From: Paracoccaceae bacterium
GTDB taxonomy: Bacteria; Pseudomonadota; Alphaproteobacteria; Rhodobacterales; Rhodobacteraceae
Reading direction: 5' to 3'
NCBI GenBank assembly: GCA_003605175.1
Contig: QWDA01000005.1
Location: 1 to 64,000 of the forward strand
Length of the DNA stretch: 64,000 bases
The notes under the pieces: model-generated
Told to the model about the DNA's origin: nothing
The model's input: only the letters and a program-made list of their open reading frames with translations
Database searches by the model: none
Position numbers and translations under genes: made by a program
Shown here: in pieces, positions 58,192 to 63,322 of the stretch
Layout: each line of letters opens with the position of its first letter
Numbering within the stretch: position 1 is the stretch's first letter

Positions 58192-59277
58192 TCAGCCTTC
58201 CCTGCCCCAGCCCTCGCCCTGCATTTCGCGGAGCCGGCTGGCGGTGCGCTCGAATTCGAAGCTGCCCTCGCCCTCGAGATAGAGCCGTTCGGGGATGTCG
58301 GCCGCCGACATGATCAGCCGCACCTTCGCCTCGTAGAGCGCGTCGATCAGCGTCACGAAGCGCTTGGCCTCGTTGTAGTTCTCGCTCGACAGGAGCGGCA
58401 CGTCCTCGAGGATCAGCACCCGGACCGCCTCGGCGATGGCGAGGTAGTCCGCCGGCCCCAGCGGTCGCGCGCAGAGCTCCCAGAACGAGGCGCGGCCGAC
58501 GCCGTTGCGGTATTGCGTCACCTCGACCGTCCGGCCCTTCACGTTCAGAGCCAGGGTCCGGTGCCGCCGGCCGCCGGTGAGGGTGTTCCAGATCTCCGAG
58601 ATCGCCTGCCGCGCCCCGGCATCCGCGGGCTGGAAATAGACCTGCGTTCCGCCCAGCTTGGTCTGCCGGTAGTCGGTGGGTGATGACAGTTCGTGAACCT
58701 GCAGGTGCTTCTCCAGAAGCCCGATGAACGGCAGGAAGAGCTGACGGTTCAGCCCGTCCTTGTAGAGATCCTGCGGCACCCGGTTCGAGGTGGTCACCAC
58801 CGTTACGCCCGCCGCGAACAGCTTCTCGAAAAGCCGCCCCACGATCATCGCGTCGGCGATGTCGGCGATCTGCATCTCGTCGAACGAAAGGAGCCGCAGC
58901 CGGTCGGAGATGTCCTTTGCCACGGGAAGGATGGCGTCGTCGACGCCGGTCTTGCGGGCCTCGTGCAGCCCGGCCTGCACTTCCTGCATGAAGCGGTGGA
59001 AATGCACGCGCCGCTTGCCTTCGATGCCCACATGGGCGTGGAACAGGTCCATCAGCATCGACTTGCCGCGCCCCACGCCGCCCCAGATGTAGAGGCCCCG
59101 GACCGGTTCGGGCGGTTTGGCGAAGAGCCCGCGGAGGCCGCCCTGGCGCGCGGGTTGCGCTTCGAGCGCGGTGCGGATCCGTTCCAGTTCCGGAAGCACG
59201 GCGAGTTGCACCGGATCGGCGGTCAGCCGCTCTTCGCCGGCGAGGCGGGTGTAGATCTCCGTAAGGGTCTCGCTCAT
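58192..59277 (-). CDS. zapE: Cell division ATPase ZapE (361 aa)
   Basis: ZapE is an AFG1-like AAA+ ATPase that interacts with FtsZ and promotes constriction. YIWGGVGRGKSMLMDLFHAHV is the Walker A region, LLSFDEMQIADIADAMI the Walker B and TSNRVPQDLYKDGLNR the sensor 1 region, with FWELCARPLGPADYLAIA and AKRFVTLIDALYEAKVRL typical of the C-terminal half. Length is normal. It is convergent with folC and divergent from the RiPP precursor gene. Confidence 0.93.
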   Translation of the reverse strand: MSETLTEIYTRLAGEERLTADPVQLAVLPELERIRTALEAQPARQGGLRGLFAKPPEPVRGLYIWGGVGRGKSMLMDLFHAHVGIEGKRRVHFHRFMQEVQAGLHEARKTGVDDAILPVAKDISDRLRLLSFDEMQIADIADAMIVGRLFEKLFAAGVTVVTTSNRVPQDLYKDGLNRQLFLPFIGLLEKHLQVHELSSPTDYRQTKLGGTQVYFQPADAGARQAISEIWNTLTGGRRHRTLALNVKGRTVEVTQYRNGVGRASFWELCARPLGPADYLAIAEAVRVLILEDVPLLSSENYNEAKRFVTLIDALYEAKVRLIMSAADIPERLYLEGEGSFEFERTASRLREMQGEGWGREG

Positions 59278-59488: not shown

Positions 59489-59517
59489 TTGAGTTGAGGG
59501 CCGATCGCAAATATGAA
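59489..59517 (+). promoter_or_regulatory. Predicted promoter of the RiPP precursor
   Basis: TTGAGT (59489-59494) and TATGAA (59512-59517) are 17 bases apart, a plausible sigma-70 pair in an otherwise GC-rich spacer. Transcription from here would leave a leader of about 30 bases before the GTG at 59553, which has GGGGAG at 59539-59544. Confidence 0.4.
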
Positions 59518-59552
59518 TCAGGGGCAAGTAGACATGATGGGGAGAATTGACA

Positions 59553-59669
59553 GTGAAAAAGATTTATGAAGCGCCGGCGCTGCGTGCACATGGCAAGGTG
59601 GAATCGGTGACGAAGTTCTATTGGAGCTGGACGAAAATTGCTCCGTGGTGTGACCCGAGCTACTCGTAA
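59553..59669 (+). CDS. RiPP precursor with lasso-type leader (38 aa)
   Basis: This small gene has a GTG start with GGGGAG eight bases upstream. The leader (residues 1-21) fits the lasso leader rule Y-x2-P-x-L-x3-G-x5-T-x exactly: Y5, P8, L10, G14, T20, K21. Cleavage after K21, by analogy, gives the core FYWSWTKIAPWCDPSYS: 17 residues with three Trp, one Cys and a C-terminal Ser. Lasso cores need an Asp or Glu at positions 7-9 as ring acceptor; here these are K, I and A. The RRE, protease and kinase genes downstream show the peptide is processed, and the kinase may phosphorylate the C-terminal Ser. The mature product is probably not a lasso. Confidence 0.8.
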   Translation: MKKIYEAPALRAHGKVESVTKFYWSWTKIAPWCDPSYS

Positions 59670-59715
59670 GTCCTTGGCAAGTCGGCCATGAGCCGACTGC
59701 CTGCGCCATAGAGGG

Positions 59716-59740
59716 AGCCCGGTCAAGTCCGGGCTTTCTT
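59716..59740 (+). terminator. Attenuating terminator between precursor and processing genes
   Basis: AGCCCGG (59716-59722) pairs perfectly with CCGGGCT (59729-59735) around a six-base loop and is followed by TTCTT. It lies 46 bases after the precursor stop and 100 bases before the RRE gene, where a partial terminator would let the short precursor mRNA outnumber the enzyme mRNA, as is common in RiPP clusters. Confidence 0.75.
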
Positions 59741-59839
59741 GCGTTCGCGGATTCGCGGGAGTGCGCAGTTACGCGTTCCGGAGCAGTTCCCTGACTGACT
59801 GGAATGCTAGCGAATTACCTCCGGTCAGAGGCAGATATC

Positions 59840-60130
59840 ATGTCAACCGATACGCTCTATGTGGCGAGCAGTGATGTCGTGGATTGCGACATCGGTGGTG
59901 ATCGCGCGCTTCTCAACATGCAGGACAACACGTATTTCACGTTGAACGCCACTGCATCCGAGATCTGGATTGCATTGTCGCAGCCGAAATCCATTGGTGA
60001 TCTGGTCGACTTGATCACCGAGCGTTTCGAGGTCTCCGTCGAGGAGTGCCGTCCGGATGTGGAGCATCTGGTGAGTGAGATGGTTGCCGCAGGCATCGTG
60101 GGCAACGCGACGCCGATCGCGAGCTCTTGA
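59840..60130 (+). CDS. PqqD-like RRE protein, lasso B1 type (96 aa)
   Basis: The protein is a stand-alone RiPP recognition element. DRALLNMQDNTYFTLNATA and SEIWIALSQPKSIGDLVDLI correspond to the beta-strand/helix core that grips the leader Tyr-Pro-Leu in B1 proteins, and ITERFEVSVEECRPDVEHLV completes the winged-helix-like fold. The ATG at 59840 follows an AGAGG site; the frame is open to 59804. Its stop shares one base with the protease ATG. It should bind the leader of the 38-residue peptide and present it to the B2 protease. Confidence 0.87.
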   Translation: MSTDTLYVASSDVVDCDIGGDRALLNMQDNTYFTLNATASEIWIALSQPKSIGDLVDLITERFEVSVEECRPDVEHLVSEMVAAGIVGNATPIASS

Positions 60131-60564
60131 TGCGCCGATTGCGCTGGGCGGGCATCTATGGCCTCAGTTTCCTGGTCATCGTTCTGGTGCGGCTTGGGCT
60201 GTGGATCACGACCTATCAGCGGGTTCGCGCATTCCTGGTACGATCCTGCCCGTCGAGCCCTCAGCCTGAGCGCGAAGTGACCGTTCAGCGTATCGTTCAT
60301 GCGGTCGAGCGCATGGCCCGCAAGGTGCCGGATGCGAGCTGCCTGACCCAATCGATATCGGCCCAGGCCCTGCTGTCGTGGAAAGGGATTCCGACGACCA
60401 TTTCCCTGGGGCTGAGGAAGGTTGCCTCCGGCGATAGCCTGGATGCGCATGCCTGGCTGACCTGGAACGGCCATGTGGTTCTTCAGGGTGATGAAGAGGC
60501 GCTTGAGGCTTTCAAGAGGATTCTCGACTTGCCCACGCCGGCAAAGTCGTTCGCCGCGTCGTGA
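60130..60564 (+). CDS. Lasso B2-type transglutaminase-fold leader protease (144 aa)
   Basis: The protein begins with a hydrophobic helix (about residues 8-28, typical of B2 proteins), then VPDASCLTQSISAQALLSW with the catalytic C71 and SLDAHAWLTWNGHVV with H107, the Cys-His core of the B2 cysteine protease family that removes the leader peptide. The ATG at 60130 shares a base with the RRE stop. The motif order and spacing are intact, so it is probably active. Nothing resembling the ATP-dependent cyclase (asparagine-synthetase fold) follows, which is unusual for such a pair. Confidence 0.87.
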   Translation: MRRLRWAGIYGLSFLVIVLVRLGLWITTYQRVRAFLVRSCPSSPQPEREVTVQRIVHAVERMARKVPDASCLTQSISAQALLSWKGIPTTISLGLRKVASGDSLDAHAWLTWNGHVVLQGDEEALEAFKRILDLPTPAKSFAAS

Positions 60565-60692
60565 CCGACTGGAGCGATTGCAAACGAAGTCTGGCGAACC
60601 GCGAAACGGCGGAGGCAACGCCCGGGCGCGCATTTCGAGATGTGTGACGATCCTTTCGGATTCGCGCGCGCAGAACAGCCTCGGGGGGCACG

Positions 60693-61652
60693 ATGACCAT
60701 GCAAGGGCACCATGCCGGTGTGAAGGCGCAATGCTACTACACGGCCTTCGGGTTGACGCTCGCCTCGGATTTCAGGTTCGACGCGCTGGCCGAGATCGCG
60801 CCGCCGGCGAACGGCGCCGATCTGAGTGTCCTGCGGAGCCGGGGGATTGTCCGCGCCAGCCATGCCGGGGATCCTTTCTTCGAGATCTCGCCCGACCGGC
60901 AATACCTGCACTGGCGGACGGTCGGTGCGTTCCTGATCCGGGATCCGGCGACCGTTCTGGTGGACCCGCATGAAGGGGTCTCGGATCACCTGGTCTCCCA
61001 GGCGTTTCTGGGTCTCGTGTTCTCGCTGGTGCTGGAACGTCACGGCATCTTGAGCCTTCACGCGGGCGCCGTGGAGGTCGGCGGGAAGGCGCTGGTCTTT
61101 CTGGGCGACAAGGGGGCCGGCAAGTCCACCACGACCGGTGCGCTCGTGGCGCGGGGCCACGCTCTCGTGACAGACGATCTCGTTGCGGTGGCGGGCGCCG
61201 CCGAGGCCGACGCGCCGCCGCTCGTCCAGCCGGGATTCCCCAGCATGAAGCTCTGGCCGGATTCCATCGCCGCGCTGGGACTGCCCGATCAGGACGACGA
61301 CCGGCTGGTGCATCCGACGATATCCAAGCGGCAGAAGCGCATGGCGACGTCCATGGCGCAGGTTCCGGTGCCGCTTGGAGCGCTGTTCCAGCTGCGTCGC
61401 ACGCGCGAGGCCGCGGCGCCGGTGGCGCGGCGTCTTGCGCCGCACATTGCCCTGCAGGCCGTACTGCGTTTCACCTTCATGGCGCGTTATGGCGAGACTC
61501 GGCTCGGGCCCAGCCATCTGGCCCTGCACATGCGGCGCTGCGGCGGGATCGTCGCGCGGGTTCCCGTCTACGATCTGGAGATTCCCGAGGATATGTCGCG
61601 CCTGCCCGAACTGGCGCAGGTCGTGGAGAATGCCATCGACCGCAACCGATAG
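60693..61652 (+). CDS. HPr kinase-like peptide kinase (319 aa)
   Basis: The N-terminal 100 residues are variable. The C-terminal kinase core has ILSLHAGAVEVGGKALVFLG, Walker A GDKGAGKST at residues 138-146 and HALVTDDLVAV (D161/D162), as in HprK-like enzymes that accompany PqqD and B2 genes. In paeninodin-type lasso clusters such a kinase phosphorylates the C-terminal Ser of the precursor; here the precursor ends in Ser. HprK-related kinases also occur in polysaccharide loci without peptides, so a different target is possible. GGGGGG lies just upstream of the ATG. Confidence 0.8.
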   Translation: MTMQGHHAGVKAQCYYTAFGLTLASDFRFDALAEIAPPANGADLSVLRSRGIVRASHAGDPFFEISPDRQYLHWRTVGAFLIRDPATVLVDPHEGVSDHLVSQAFLGLVFSLVLERHGILSLHAGAVEVGGKALVFLGDKGAGKSTTTGALVARGHALVTDDLVAVAGAAEADAPPLVQPGFPSMKLWPDSIAALGLPDQDDDRLVHPTISKRQKRMATSMAQVPVPLGALFQLRRTREAAAPVARRLAPHIALQAVLRFTFMARYGETRLGPSHLALHMRRCGGIVARVPVYDLEIPEDMSRLPELAQVVENAIDRNR

Positions 61653-61700: not shown

Positions 61701-62405
61701 CTATTTTCCGGTTCTTGCAAGCACTGCGCCGAAGGTGCCGAGAATCACCCGAAGATCCGTTCCGAGCGACATGCTGTTGATATAGGCGACATCCAGTTTG
61801 ACCCGCTCGCGGTAGGTGATGTCATTGCGCCCCGAGATCTGCCACAACCCGGTCACTCCGGGCCGCACCGAGAAATAGGGGACGCGATGCGGCCCGTACT
61901 TGCGCACTTCGGTGCGAACGATGGGGCGCGGGCCGACCAGGCTCATGTCGCCCTTCAGCACATTCCAGAGTTGAGGCAGCTCGTCGAGGCTGGACCTGCG
62001 AAGAAACCGGCCGAACCGGGTGACCCGTGGGTCGTTGGCAAGTTTATGGTCGCGCTTCCATTCTGCGGCAGCGGCGGGATTCCGGGCGAGGTGCGCACGG
62101 AGGCGGCTGTCGGCATCCGGTACCATGGTCCGGATCTTCCAGCACCGAAAAGCCTTTCCGTTCCGGCCGATACGCGGATGCCCGAAAAGCACCGGTCCGC
62201 GATCCCCCGAAAGGCGCATGACGGCAGCGGCGAACGCAACGACCAATAGAGCCACCGGAATGGCGGGGCCCACAAGCACGATATCCACGATGCGCTTGCC
62301 GCCCTGGCGATACTTGTCACTGGAGTGGAAGTATTTCTTCTGACGTGCATCAAAAGTCTCGACGGAGGCGGCACTCGCCCCGTCAAACGCGGACATCCGT
62401 TTCAC
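61701..62405 (-). CDS. Bacterial sugar-1-phosphate transferase (234 aa)
   Basis: This membrane enzyme starts glycan assembly by moving a sugar phosphate from UDP-sugar to undecaprenyl phosphate. An N-terminal helix (VDIVLVGPAIPVALLVVAFA) precedes the core with RIGRNGKAFRCWKIRTMVPD, SSLDELPQLWNVLKGDMSLV, GPRPIVRTEVRKY and PGVTGLWQISGRNDITY, the WcaJ/ExoY-type signature. I choose the GTG at 62405 (GGGGAAT nine bases upstream); an ATG at 62396 and upstream open frame to 62498 are alternatives. It is convergent with the kinase gene, 48 bases between stops. Confidence 0.88.
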   Translation of the reverse strand: MKRMSAFDGASAASVETFDARQKKYFHSSDKYRQGGKRIVDIVLVGPAIPVALLVVAFAAAVMRLSGDRGPVLFGHPRIGRNGKAFRCWKIRTMVPDADSRLRAHLARNPAAAAEWKRDHKLANDPRVTRFGRFLRRSSLDELPQLWNVLKGDMSLVGPRPIVRTEVRKYGPHRVPYFSVRPGVTGLWQISGRNDITYRERVKLDVAYINSMSLGTDLRVILGTFGAVLARTGK

Positions 62406-63322
62406 TGTACTTATTCCCCACCAATATTCTGTAATACCGCCACACGAATTACAAGCGCAAATGCCCCACGGGTTTCCCCAAAGGCTAAACAATAACAAAA
62501 GCGGTGTATCACACCCTAAAGATTTCCCTCATATCTCTGGTAACATCTAGCCTTTAGGTTGAGAAGCCGAAAATCGTGAAACGATCTTTGCTCCCCGACG
62601 TCGGCATCAAGATGCCCAAATTTCATGCCGCGCAGAGCGGGCCGCCCACTTCGGTTGCCATCTGACAATCTCGCGGCTGCGGTTGCCTCGGATGCCGCGA
62701 TTCCGGTGCCTCAACCTGCATTGCGCGATGTGCCAAGTTGCTGGATTCGCTCGCAGATCGCCTGCCCCATCCGTCGGGTCCCGGGAATCCCGATCATGGC
62801 GCCAATTCAGCGTGCGGCGAGGTTGCATGAATGCGCCAGCATGGCCGCGCGTCTGCGCGGAAATGTGCTTCGGGATTGGCAAGAAGACGCCGCACAACAG
62901 GGCGGTTGCGTGTGCCGGAGGCCGGTCGAGAACACCCGCGAAGACGGGAATCATGGGCGATGCGCCGGTGACGGGAATTCTGCCCGCGAGATTGTCGATT
63001 GACCCGGCACCGGGCCGGACCGCCAGGCGAGATTCGGGTGGATTGGAACTCTCCGATGACGGGACGGGCCGCGGCGCATTGGGGGATGGCGCTTGTCAGC
63101 GAAGTAGGTGGAAGAGTTCCGCCGATCCGGACGGCGGCCGCCCTTGGCATTTCCGTCGTGGAAGTCATAAGGGGGAGGGGAGCCTATCAACCTAGAGTAG
63201 TGTTCGGGTGTCCTGCGCGACAGAAATTACTGGTGCATTCGGGGCGTGGGCGCTGTAACCTTCGCTGGCATCCAATGTTCGTTAGGCAGGAGTTTTGGGG
63301 CAGTAAGAGTTATGGAGGTTGC
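62406..63322. other. Large regulatory-looking intergenic region (917 bases)
   Basis: No convincing gene is found here. The first 180 bases are AT-rich (I counted about 43% GC in 62461-62580) and contain a perfect GGTGT-ATC-ACACC dyad at 62503-62515 and CCTAAAG/CTTTAGG arms at 62515-62521 and 62552-62558, good operator candidates for the divergent polysaccharide genes. The rest (62600-63200) is GC-rich with short open frames of improbable composition, perhaps a decayed gene. The GT2 gene has a strong GGAGG near 63315. Confidence 0.5.

Follow-up and report, generated by a model that had tools for sequence, protein, structure and literature searches.

A kinase-bearing lasso peptide locus that has lost its cyclase in a Paracoccaceae bacterium, and its putative linear phosphopeptide

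What does a lasso peptide locus make when it retains a precursor gene, a leader-reading protein, a leader peptidase and a peptide kinase, and has no enzyme to close the lasso ring? This question is raised by a locus in a 64,000-nucleotide stretch of DNA from a Paracoccaceae bacterium (hereafter, the window), which opens contig 31 (339,762 bp) in a 4.09-Mb genome of 35 contigs that is 99.96% complete. An initial annotation had placed there, in a row, genes for a precursor of a ribosomally synthesized and post-translationally modified peptide (RiPP), a RiPP recognition element (RRE), a B2 protease and an HprK-like kinase. All four were located, those for RRE, B2 and kinase with profile scores above the cut-offs; the overall place was right, whereas the gene starts were amended to 59840 for the RRE, 60130 for B2 and 60693 (or GTG 60720) for the kinase. 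With middling confidence, we lean towards the view that the product is a linear peptide phosphorylated at its C-terminal Ser and made by a derived, cyclase-less form of a kinase-bearing lasso locus. The parts of the locus are:

59539-59544, plus strand: ribosome-binding-like GGGGAG of the precursor gene, eight bases 5' of the start, from reading the sequence
59553-59669, plus strand: precursor gene A, 38 aa, with leader VKKIYEAPALRAHGKVESVTK and predicted core FYWSWTKIAPWCDPSYS; leave-window-out leader profile E 2.8e-8
59711-59740, plus strand: terminator-like hairpin between A and B1, with a T-rich lower right arm; -20.7 kcal/mol, z -3.9
59840-60130, plus strand: B1, discrete RRE (PqqD-like), 96 aa; PF05402 64.4 bits (cut-off 23.4)
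60130-60564, plus strand: B2, lasso leader peptidase (transglutaminase-like), 144 aa; NF033537 75.3 bits (cut-off 33), PF13471 80.8 bits
60565-60692, plus strand: 128-bp gap, the site of cyclase gene C (~1.9 kb) in relatives; remnant undetectable
60693-61652 (alternative start GTG 60720), plus strand: K, HprK-like peptide kinase, 319 aa; PF07475 33.9 bits, barely above the cut-off of 33.3

The nearest kinases among the matches listed were those of a Marivita metagenome-assembled genome (L054, 61% identical), an uncultured Roseobacter (L055, 58%), a Sulfitobacter indolifex plasmid (L137, 54%) and Tritonibacter horizontis (L056, 44%). All four relatives carry exporter, precursor(s), B1, B2, cyclase and kinase in that order, and the order B1-B2-C-K was found in 59 loci. 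The surroundings are shared as well: as in the window, the Marivita kinase is followed by the same sugar transferase in opposite orientation, and the Roseobacter locus has, ~4 kb downstream and on the opposite strand, an NTP_transf_5 gene that is a close relative of the one flanking the window. When three groupings were compared on a codon tree, with the pairing of L137 and L056 held fixed, placing the window beside L054 gave a log-likelihood (lnL) of -8168, versus -8187 and -8190 for the others. Judged from these sequences, descent from a kinase-bearing (paeninodin-like) Rhodobacterales lasso locus is firm. Because the window falls inside cyclase-bearing relatives, and because of the 59 B1-B2-C-K loci, the loss of the cyclase is derived, and it most likely occurred on the window's own branch. 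The initial annotation had described a lasso-like RiPP locus without a cyclase. A separate RiPP type is not supported: of the results that the annotation had named as refuting, one was obtained, since relatives of the precursor carry an acid at core positions 7-9, and their loci also carry a cyclase. The window therefore holds a lasso locus from which C and the exporter gene D have gone, rather than a system that lacked the cyclase from the outset. The initial suggestion of a linear, Ser-phosphorylated peptide still appears to be the best reading.

We regard the absence of cyclase C from the genome as firm on the profile and nearest-cyclase searches. The initial annotation had seen no asparagine-synthetase-type cyclase in the window and had called for a search of the whole genome; none was found in either by PF00733, NCBIfam or the Marivita cyclase as query. 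PF00733 gave four partial matches in the genome, at 21.8-31.1 bits (Pfam cut-off 21) over 56-73 of 354 positions; the cyclases of the four relatives score 132-157 bits across the full model. These matches were rejected as cyclases, since NCBIfam identified them, each above its own cut-off, as QueC, MnmA, NAD+ synthase (NadE) and argininosuccinate synthase (ArgG). As a positive control, the PF00733 search succeeded in 11 of 14 control genomes; the Marivita query, a search that had no positive control, returned no match. A cyclase remnant in the 128-bp gap was likewise rejected, as 166, 100 and 122 of 200 shuffles reached the score of local alignments to the cyclase genes of three relatives. A GTGACC at the former cyclase start resembles the ATGACC of the relatives and was not used as evidence. 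Separately, the genome-wide search turned up no full-length gene with an asparagine-synthase domain, so an AsnB-type enzyme seems to be absent too.

Does the precursor reflect the loss of the ring-closing step? Its 38 codons run from a GTG at 59553 to a stop that ends at 59669, and its leader, YEAPALRAHGKVESVTK, matches the rule Y-x2-P-x-L-x3-G-x5-T-x, with Thr at -2. A leader profile made from 49 distinct precursors of relatives, with the window left out, was run against 118 kb of the contig translated in all six frames; it returned the precursor frame at E 2.8e-8 and its runner-up at E 6.3. The match is far above chance, and the lasso-type leader initially recognized is thereby confirmed. 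By itself, the precursor stays under the NCBIfam lasso cut-offs (26.8 versus 33 for lasso_cyano, and 18.7 versus 19), and it is the single precursor of its kind found in the genome (next match, E 1.86). Core residues 1-9 read FYWSWTKIA and, as first noted, Asp and Glu are absent from positions 7-9 (K, I, A). The core ends in DPSYS, with Asp fifth from the end, Ser third, an aromatic residue second and Ser last, in agreement with the D-x-T-F/L-S pattern of the relatives.

For comparison, 62 precursors (47 distinct cores) were collected by a fixed-spacing leader pattern. Of 92 loci that have both RRE and kinase, 58 yielded such a precursor and the 34 others were dropped, so that the counts are valid for that leader type only. 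An acid occupies core positions 7-9 in 60 of the 62, both exceptions being in Tritonibacter. The C-terminal Ser, whose conservation the initial annotation had proposed to check, is present in 58 of 62 (the others being in L046, L049, L112 and L121). Mesorhizobium contributes 31 of the 62 precursors, with 16 distinct cores; without it, the counts are 29/31 for the acid and 27/31 for the Ser.

Comparison with the Roseobacter precursor (leader YEAPVLRAHGKVEAVTK, core GGTTGTSLDAAFPVGTPFSDVTLS; window, YEAPALRAHGKVESVTK and FYWSWTKIAPWCDPSYS) showed that 15 of 17 leader residues are identical, this being the best-kept of ten pairs compared, with 6 codons identical, 9 changed synonymously and 2 nonsynonymously. 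In the core, no more than 4 of 17 residues agree, although the alignment was allowed a free gap. The contrast between leader and core gave a Fisher probability of 3.6e-4, taking the 13/17 core changes of the best one-gap alignment; the figure would be 1.6e-5 if 15/17 changes were assumed. The core resembles those of the relatives only marginally (P 0.04 to 0.18), and therefore the homology of the tail is a matter of pattern, not of alignment. The precursor thus reads as one whose leader was retained and core rewritten, with the ring acid lost and the phosphorylation tail kept. Drift alone seems unlikely to have produced this, because it would have hit the leader too; the pattern would be expected of a peptide that is still read by B1, B2 and K but is no longer closed into a ring.

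A partial parallel exists in Tritonibacter horizontis, which has three precursors 5' of its RRE. The third (L056 5135-5322) shares with the window a lasso-type leader, a core that starts with Phe, the lack of an acid at 7-9, there being none within its first twenty core residues, and a similar tail, DAFS; it differs in its Gly/His/Lys-rich core and in the retained cyclase. Ring-less cores with a phosphorylation tail therefore occur beside an intact cyclase gene, and this precursor may represent a possible stepping stone toward a ring-less product. The second Tritonibacter precursor has acids at positions 6 and 10, not 7-9.

Among the proteins that remain, the RRE matches, by phmmer, the structurally solved chains 9x90 (lasso PqqD family chaperone), 5v1u (TbiB1) and 9x8z (PqqD family protein). 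B2, the sole Transglut_core3 match in the genome, retains Cys71 and His107, which are invariant across nine sequences and which we take to be the catalytic residues. The kinase retains H123, G143-K144-S145-T146 and D161-D162, all in invariant alignment columns. They belong to the H, G-K-S and D-D motif, which matters in the kinase BsfK (PMC10368454). The frames of A, B1, B2 and K contain no stop or frameshift. In a branch model of 529 codons, the ratio of nonsynonymous to synonymous substitution rates (omega) was 0.065 on the window branch and 0.043 in the background, a difference that is not significant, and an omega of 1 on the window branch fitted worse by 13 lnL units and was rejected. The kinase by itself gave an omega of 0.035 on the window branch versus 0.059 elsewhere.

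The hairpin between precursor and RRE gene, initially described as a terminator, is strong, folding at -20.7 kcal/mol with 0 of 200 shuffles as good; however, its T-rich stretch sits in the lower right arm, not 3' of the stem, and a simple terminator scan of the window did not list it. Both relatives examined have T-run-tailed hairpins between precursor and RRE gene (L054 5258-5294, L055 5246-5274). The hairpin is likely a device that gives more precursor than enzymes.

How might such a pathway work? The RRE (B1) would bind the YxxPxL leader, K would phosphorylate the C-terminal Ser17 of the still-linear precursor, and B2, together with B1, would cleave behind T-K and set free the 17-mer FYWSWTKIAPWCDPSYS, linear and (poly)phosphorylated. 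Known kinases of this type act ahead of B2 and C, on the C-terminal Ser of a precursor that is still linear (PMC9266682, PMC10368454). In the Bsf locus of Bradymonas, the RRE (BsfB1) speeds phosphorylation by BsfK and is needed for cleavage by B2, and both steps work in vitro without C (PMC10368454). Since these steps run without C elsewhere, nothing in the remaining pathway should need it. PsmN has been linked to a hexose on the phosphorylated Ser (PMC9266682), so the neighbouring NTP_transf_5 protein could possibly add a sugar to the phosphorylated peptide. Expression, phosphosite, cut site, linearity and any glycosylation of the product are what we infer from this arrangement.

We surveyed relatives for other cyclase-less loci. 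In the family, the kinase was found in 23 of 394 genomes (about one per genus) and B2 in 25 of 394; a second, largely overlapping draw with a stricter limit gave the kinase in 7 of 389, the genome studied here being counted each time. From GTDB r220, 80 loci were kept of at least 118 relatives, found by one ATP-loop pattern, and eight plasmid records were added. A profile scan of 119 stretches gave 116 with a match, of which 110 were kept; those left out were L005 and the window piece (the locus itself), L084 and L108 (duplicates), L150 (which shares a contig with the cyclase-bearing L045) and L151 (kinase only). RRE, B2 and kinase occur together in 83 of the 110 stretches, and 4 of these 83 (L041, L043, L053 and L122) have no cyclase; their kinases are distant from that of the window. 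At the usual cyclase site, L041 (5966-10445) and L053 (7011-12419), both of Rhodobacteraceae, have an ATPgrasp_ST protein, fused to NTP_transf_5 in L041; L053 also has a WxxP-type small frame upstream. These two loci possibly represent another cyclase-less RiPP type. L043 has glycosyl- and sulfotransferase-like genes at the cyclase site, and L122 is a 6.7-kb contig. In L096, L104, L108 and L118 the stretch holds a kinase without RRE, B2 or cyclase, and in L140, L146 and L147 a B2 without kinase or cyclase; the kinase lies on another contig in the genomes of L146 (L052) and L147 (L042), the latter of which also has a cyclase. The haloarchaeon Halopiger xanaduensis also has a plasmid-borne kinase relative (NC_015658.1, 25816-26727), with 30% identity over 97% coverage.

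Could the locus instead be a relic in decay, in which the loss of C and the exporter is recent, the core drifts, and too little time has passed for B1, B2 and K to break down? We consider this unlikely, but it is the main rival and a serious one, and several observations weigh on its side and against a working linear-phosphopeptide pathway. Two of the six usual genes, C and D, are gone, and the loss of the exporter fits decay. No exporter was found beside the locus, and the ABC (ATP-binding cassette) genes of the genome include no evident ortholog: the best is 31% identical to the Marivita lasso exporter, and another reaches 42% in the ATPase half only (the lasso exporters of the four relatives are 48-67% identical to each other); an unrelated exporter elsewhere is possible. 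The locus was seen in a single genome, the survey found no further cyclase-less members of the same clade, and the one other species of the genus examined gave no match to precursor, kinase or B2. The promoter scan found no promoter match. The leader identity of 15/17 is that of the best pair, not the mean, the differences from other relatives being 4 (L054a) or 5 (L054b, L137) of 17. For B2 and RRE only, omega was 0.096 versus 0.039 elsewhere, with neutrality rejected by just 4 lnL units. Synonymous sites are saturated on the codon tree, and the omega test therefore speaks for the whole branch, not its last part: recent relaxation is compatible with it, the cyclase loss cannot be dated, and only the rejection of full-branch neutrality stands.

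Against decay, the core is rewritten nearly throughout and the leader is kept, whereas neutral drift would strike both; the four open frames and a branch omega not significantly above background point the same way. The argument from leader and core would not apply, however, had the core been swapped in one step and the locus been neglected only recently.

It is improbable, in our view, that the core is cross-linked or otherwise altered by an enzyme encoded elsewhere, so that another ring replaces the lasso ring. The unusual core composition (three Trp, two Tyr and one Cys) would suit such a new modification, as would the ATP-grasp protein at the usual cyclase site of L041 and L053; however, radical SAM, P450 and ATP-grasp proteins were absent among the seven family-scanned genes between 59553 and 65655, the rest of the genome not having been searched for them. 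That the product is still a lasso, closed by a cyclase from elsewhere, a missed contig or another cell, is very improbable despite the 35 contigs, as the genome is 99.96% complete, neither profile nor nearest-cyclase query (the latter without a positive control) found a cyclase-like gene, and the ring acid is gone from the core too.

The locus lies in a polysaccharide-gene setting. From ZapE onward, the gene sequence is precursor, hairpin, RRE, B2, gap, kinase, sugar-1-phosphate transferase and a glycosyltransferase of family 2 (GT2); past the window end follow the NTP_transf_5 protein, a beta-helix protein and polysaccharide genes:

58192-59277, minus strand: ZapE
61701-62396, minus strand: sugar-1-phosphate transferase adjoining K; PF02397 202.3 bits
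63323-64000, plus strand: GT2 glycosyltransferase, continuing to contig position 64396; PF00535
contig 31, 64459-65655 (L005 6459-7655), minus strand: NTP_transf_5, just beyond the window, 2.8 kb downstream of K

An envelope- or polysaccharide-linked role of the product would be a guess from this neighbourhood. A 115-codon minus-strand frame at 62607-62954 matched no NCBIfam family. The G+C content of the precursor (52%) and RRE (56%) genes (59553-60130) is low against 68% for the window, which hints at a horizontal origin. Elsewhere in the genome, a second HPr-kinase-like gene (40 bits; contig 11, 315806-316027) is, we presume, the ordinary alphaproteobacterial HprK, and a third such match, on contig 32, is weak and under the cut-off.

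We tentatively propose, as a more general possibility, that lasso pathways can turn into makers of linear phosphopeptides: ring-less cores would arise beside normal ones, as in Tritonibacter, after which cyclase and exporter would be shed, with leader reading, cutting and C-terminal phosphorylation kept. On this view, the window would show such a conversion in an alphaproteobacterium, with B2 as the processing enzyme and independently of the cyclase-less linear polyphosphorylated peptides (LPPs) of Bacillota. The locus presents a lasso pathway that has already lost its class-defining enzyme, its precursor changed in the part that the cyclase used and kept in the parts that other enzymes read. 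If it is active, the kinase-and-leader module would be useful by itself and the knot dispensable, which bears on the role of phosphorylated lasso peptides and LPPs in polysaccharide loci. Genome mining that demands a cyclase will overlook such loci.

Among known systems, the paeninodin-type loci (padeA/K/B1/C/B2; pseudomycoidin psmK/psmN) share with the window the [Y/W]xxPxL...T-x leader, discrete RRE, B2, HprK-like kinase and C-terminal Ser, and also a nucleotidyltransferase-type gene nearby and a polysaccharide-gene setting. Unlike them, the window locus lacks cyclase, exporter and an Asp or Glu at core 7-9, so that no lasso is expected by the known rule. Paeninodins proper are described from Bacillota only, with RREs favouring WxxP (PMC13381572); with its YEAP (YxxP) leader and alphaproteobacterial host, the window locus would not be a paeninodin in the narrow sense. 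The Marivita, Roseobacter, Sulfitobacter indolifex and Tritonibacter loci have the same B1, B2, kinase (44-61% identical), leader and neighbours, and differ in keeping cyclase, exporter and ring acid. The Bsf system differs in phosphorylating core Ser3, in a precursor that ends in Asp and in Ile at -2, and it is described as a lasso locus (PMC10368454).

The LPPs combine an RRE, an HprK-like kinase and an NTP transferase without a cyclase in capsule or polysaccharide loci of Bacillota (PMC13381572, Nat Commun 2026). A phosphorylated linear peptide was obtained in a heterologous host, and the authors did not identify the final product. The window resembles them in having an RRE, an HprK-like kinase and an NTP transferase (64459-65655) without a macrolactam cyclase. 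It differs in three features: LPPs use an archaeal-type signal peptidase (SpI), whereas the window has B2 as its peptidase gene, and none of the seven genes scanned for families between 59553 and 65655 is a signal peptidase; the LPP leader YxxPxVLxHQxIxFETxxS goes with a phosphorylated core Ser3, whereas window core position 3 is Trp and the Ser is C-terminal; and LPPs have an MsbA-like exporter, which the window locus lacks beside it (PMC13381572). As read from its genes, the window locus thus departs from lasso peptides in two features, having neither cyclase nor ring acid, and from LPPs in three (the type of peptidase, the leader motif with its Ser3, and the exporter), and, not being a narrow-sense paeninodin, it is filed under none of the three. 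In the open-licence PMC literature, LPPs were the only cyclase-less phosphorylated relatives found, and no alphaproteobacterial, B2-processed cyclase-less case was found in print. The concept appears not to be wholly new, as a linear phosphorylated RiPP without a cyclase has already been published as LPP (PMC13381572); the window locus is best described as derived from a kinase-bearing lasso locus by loss of the cyclase, and as apparently convergent with LPPs.

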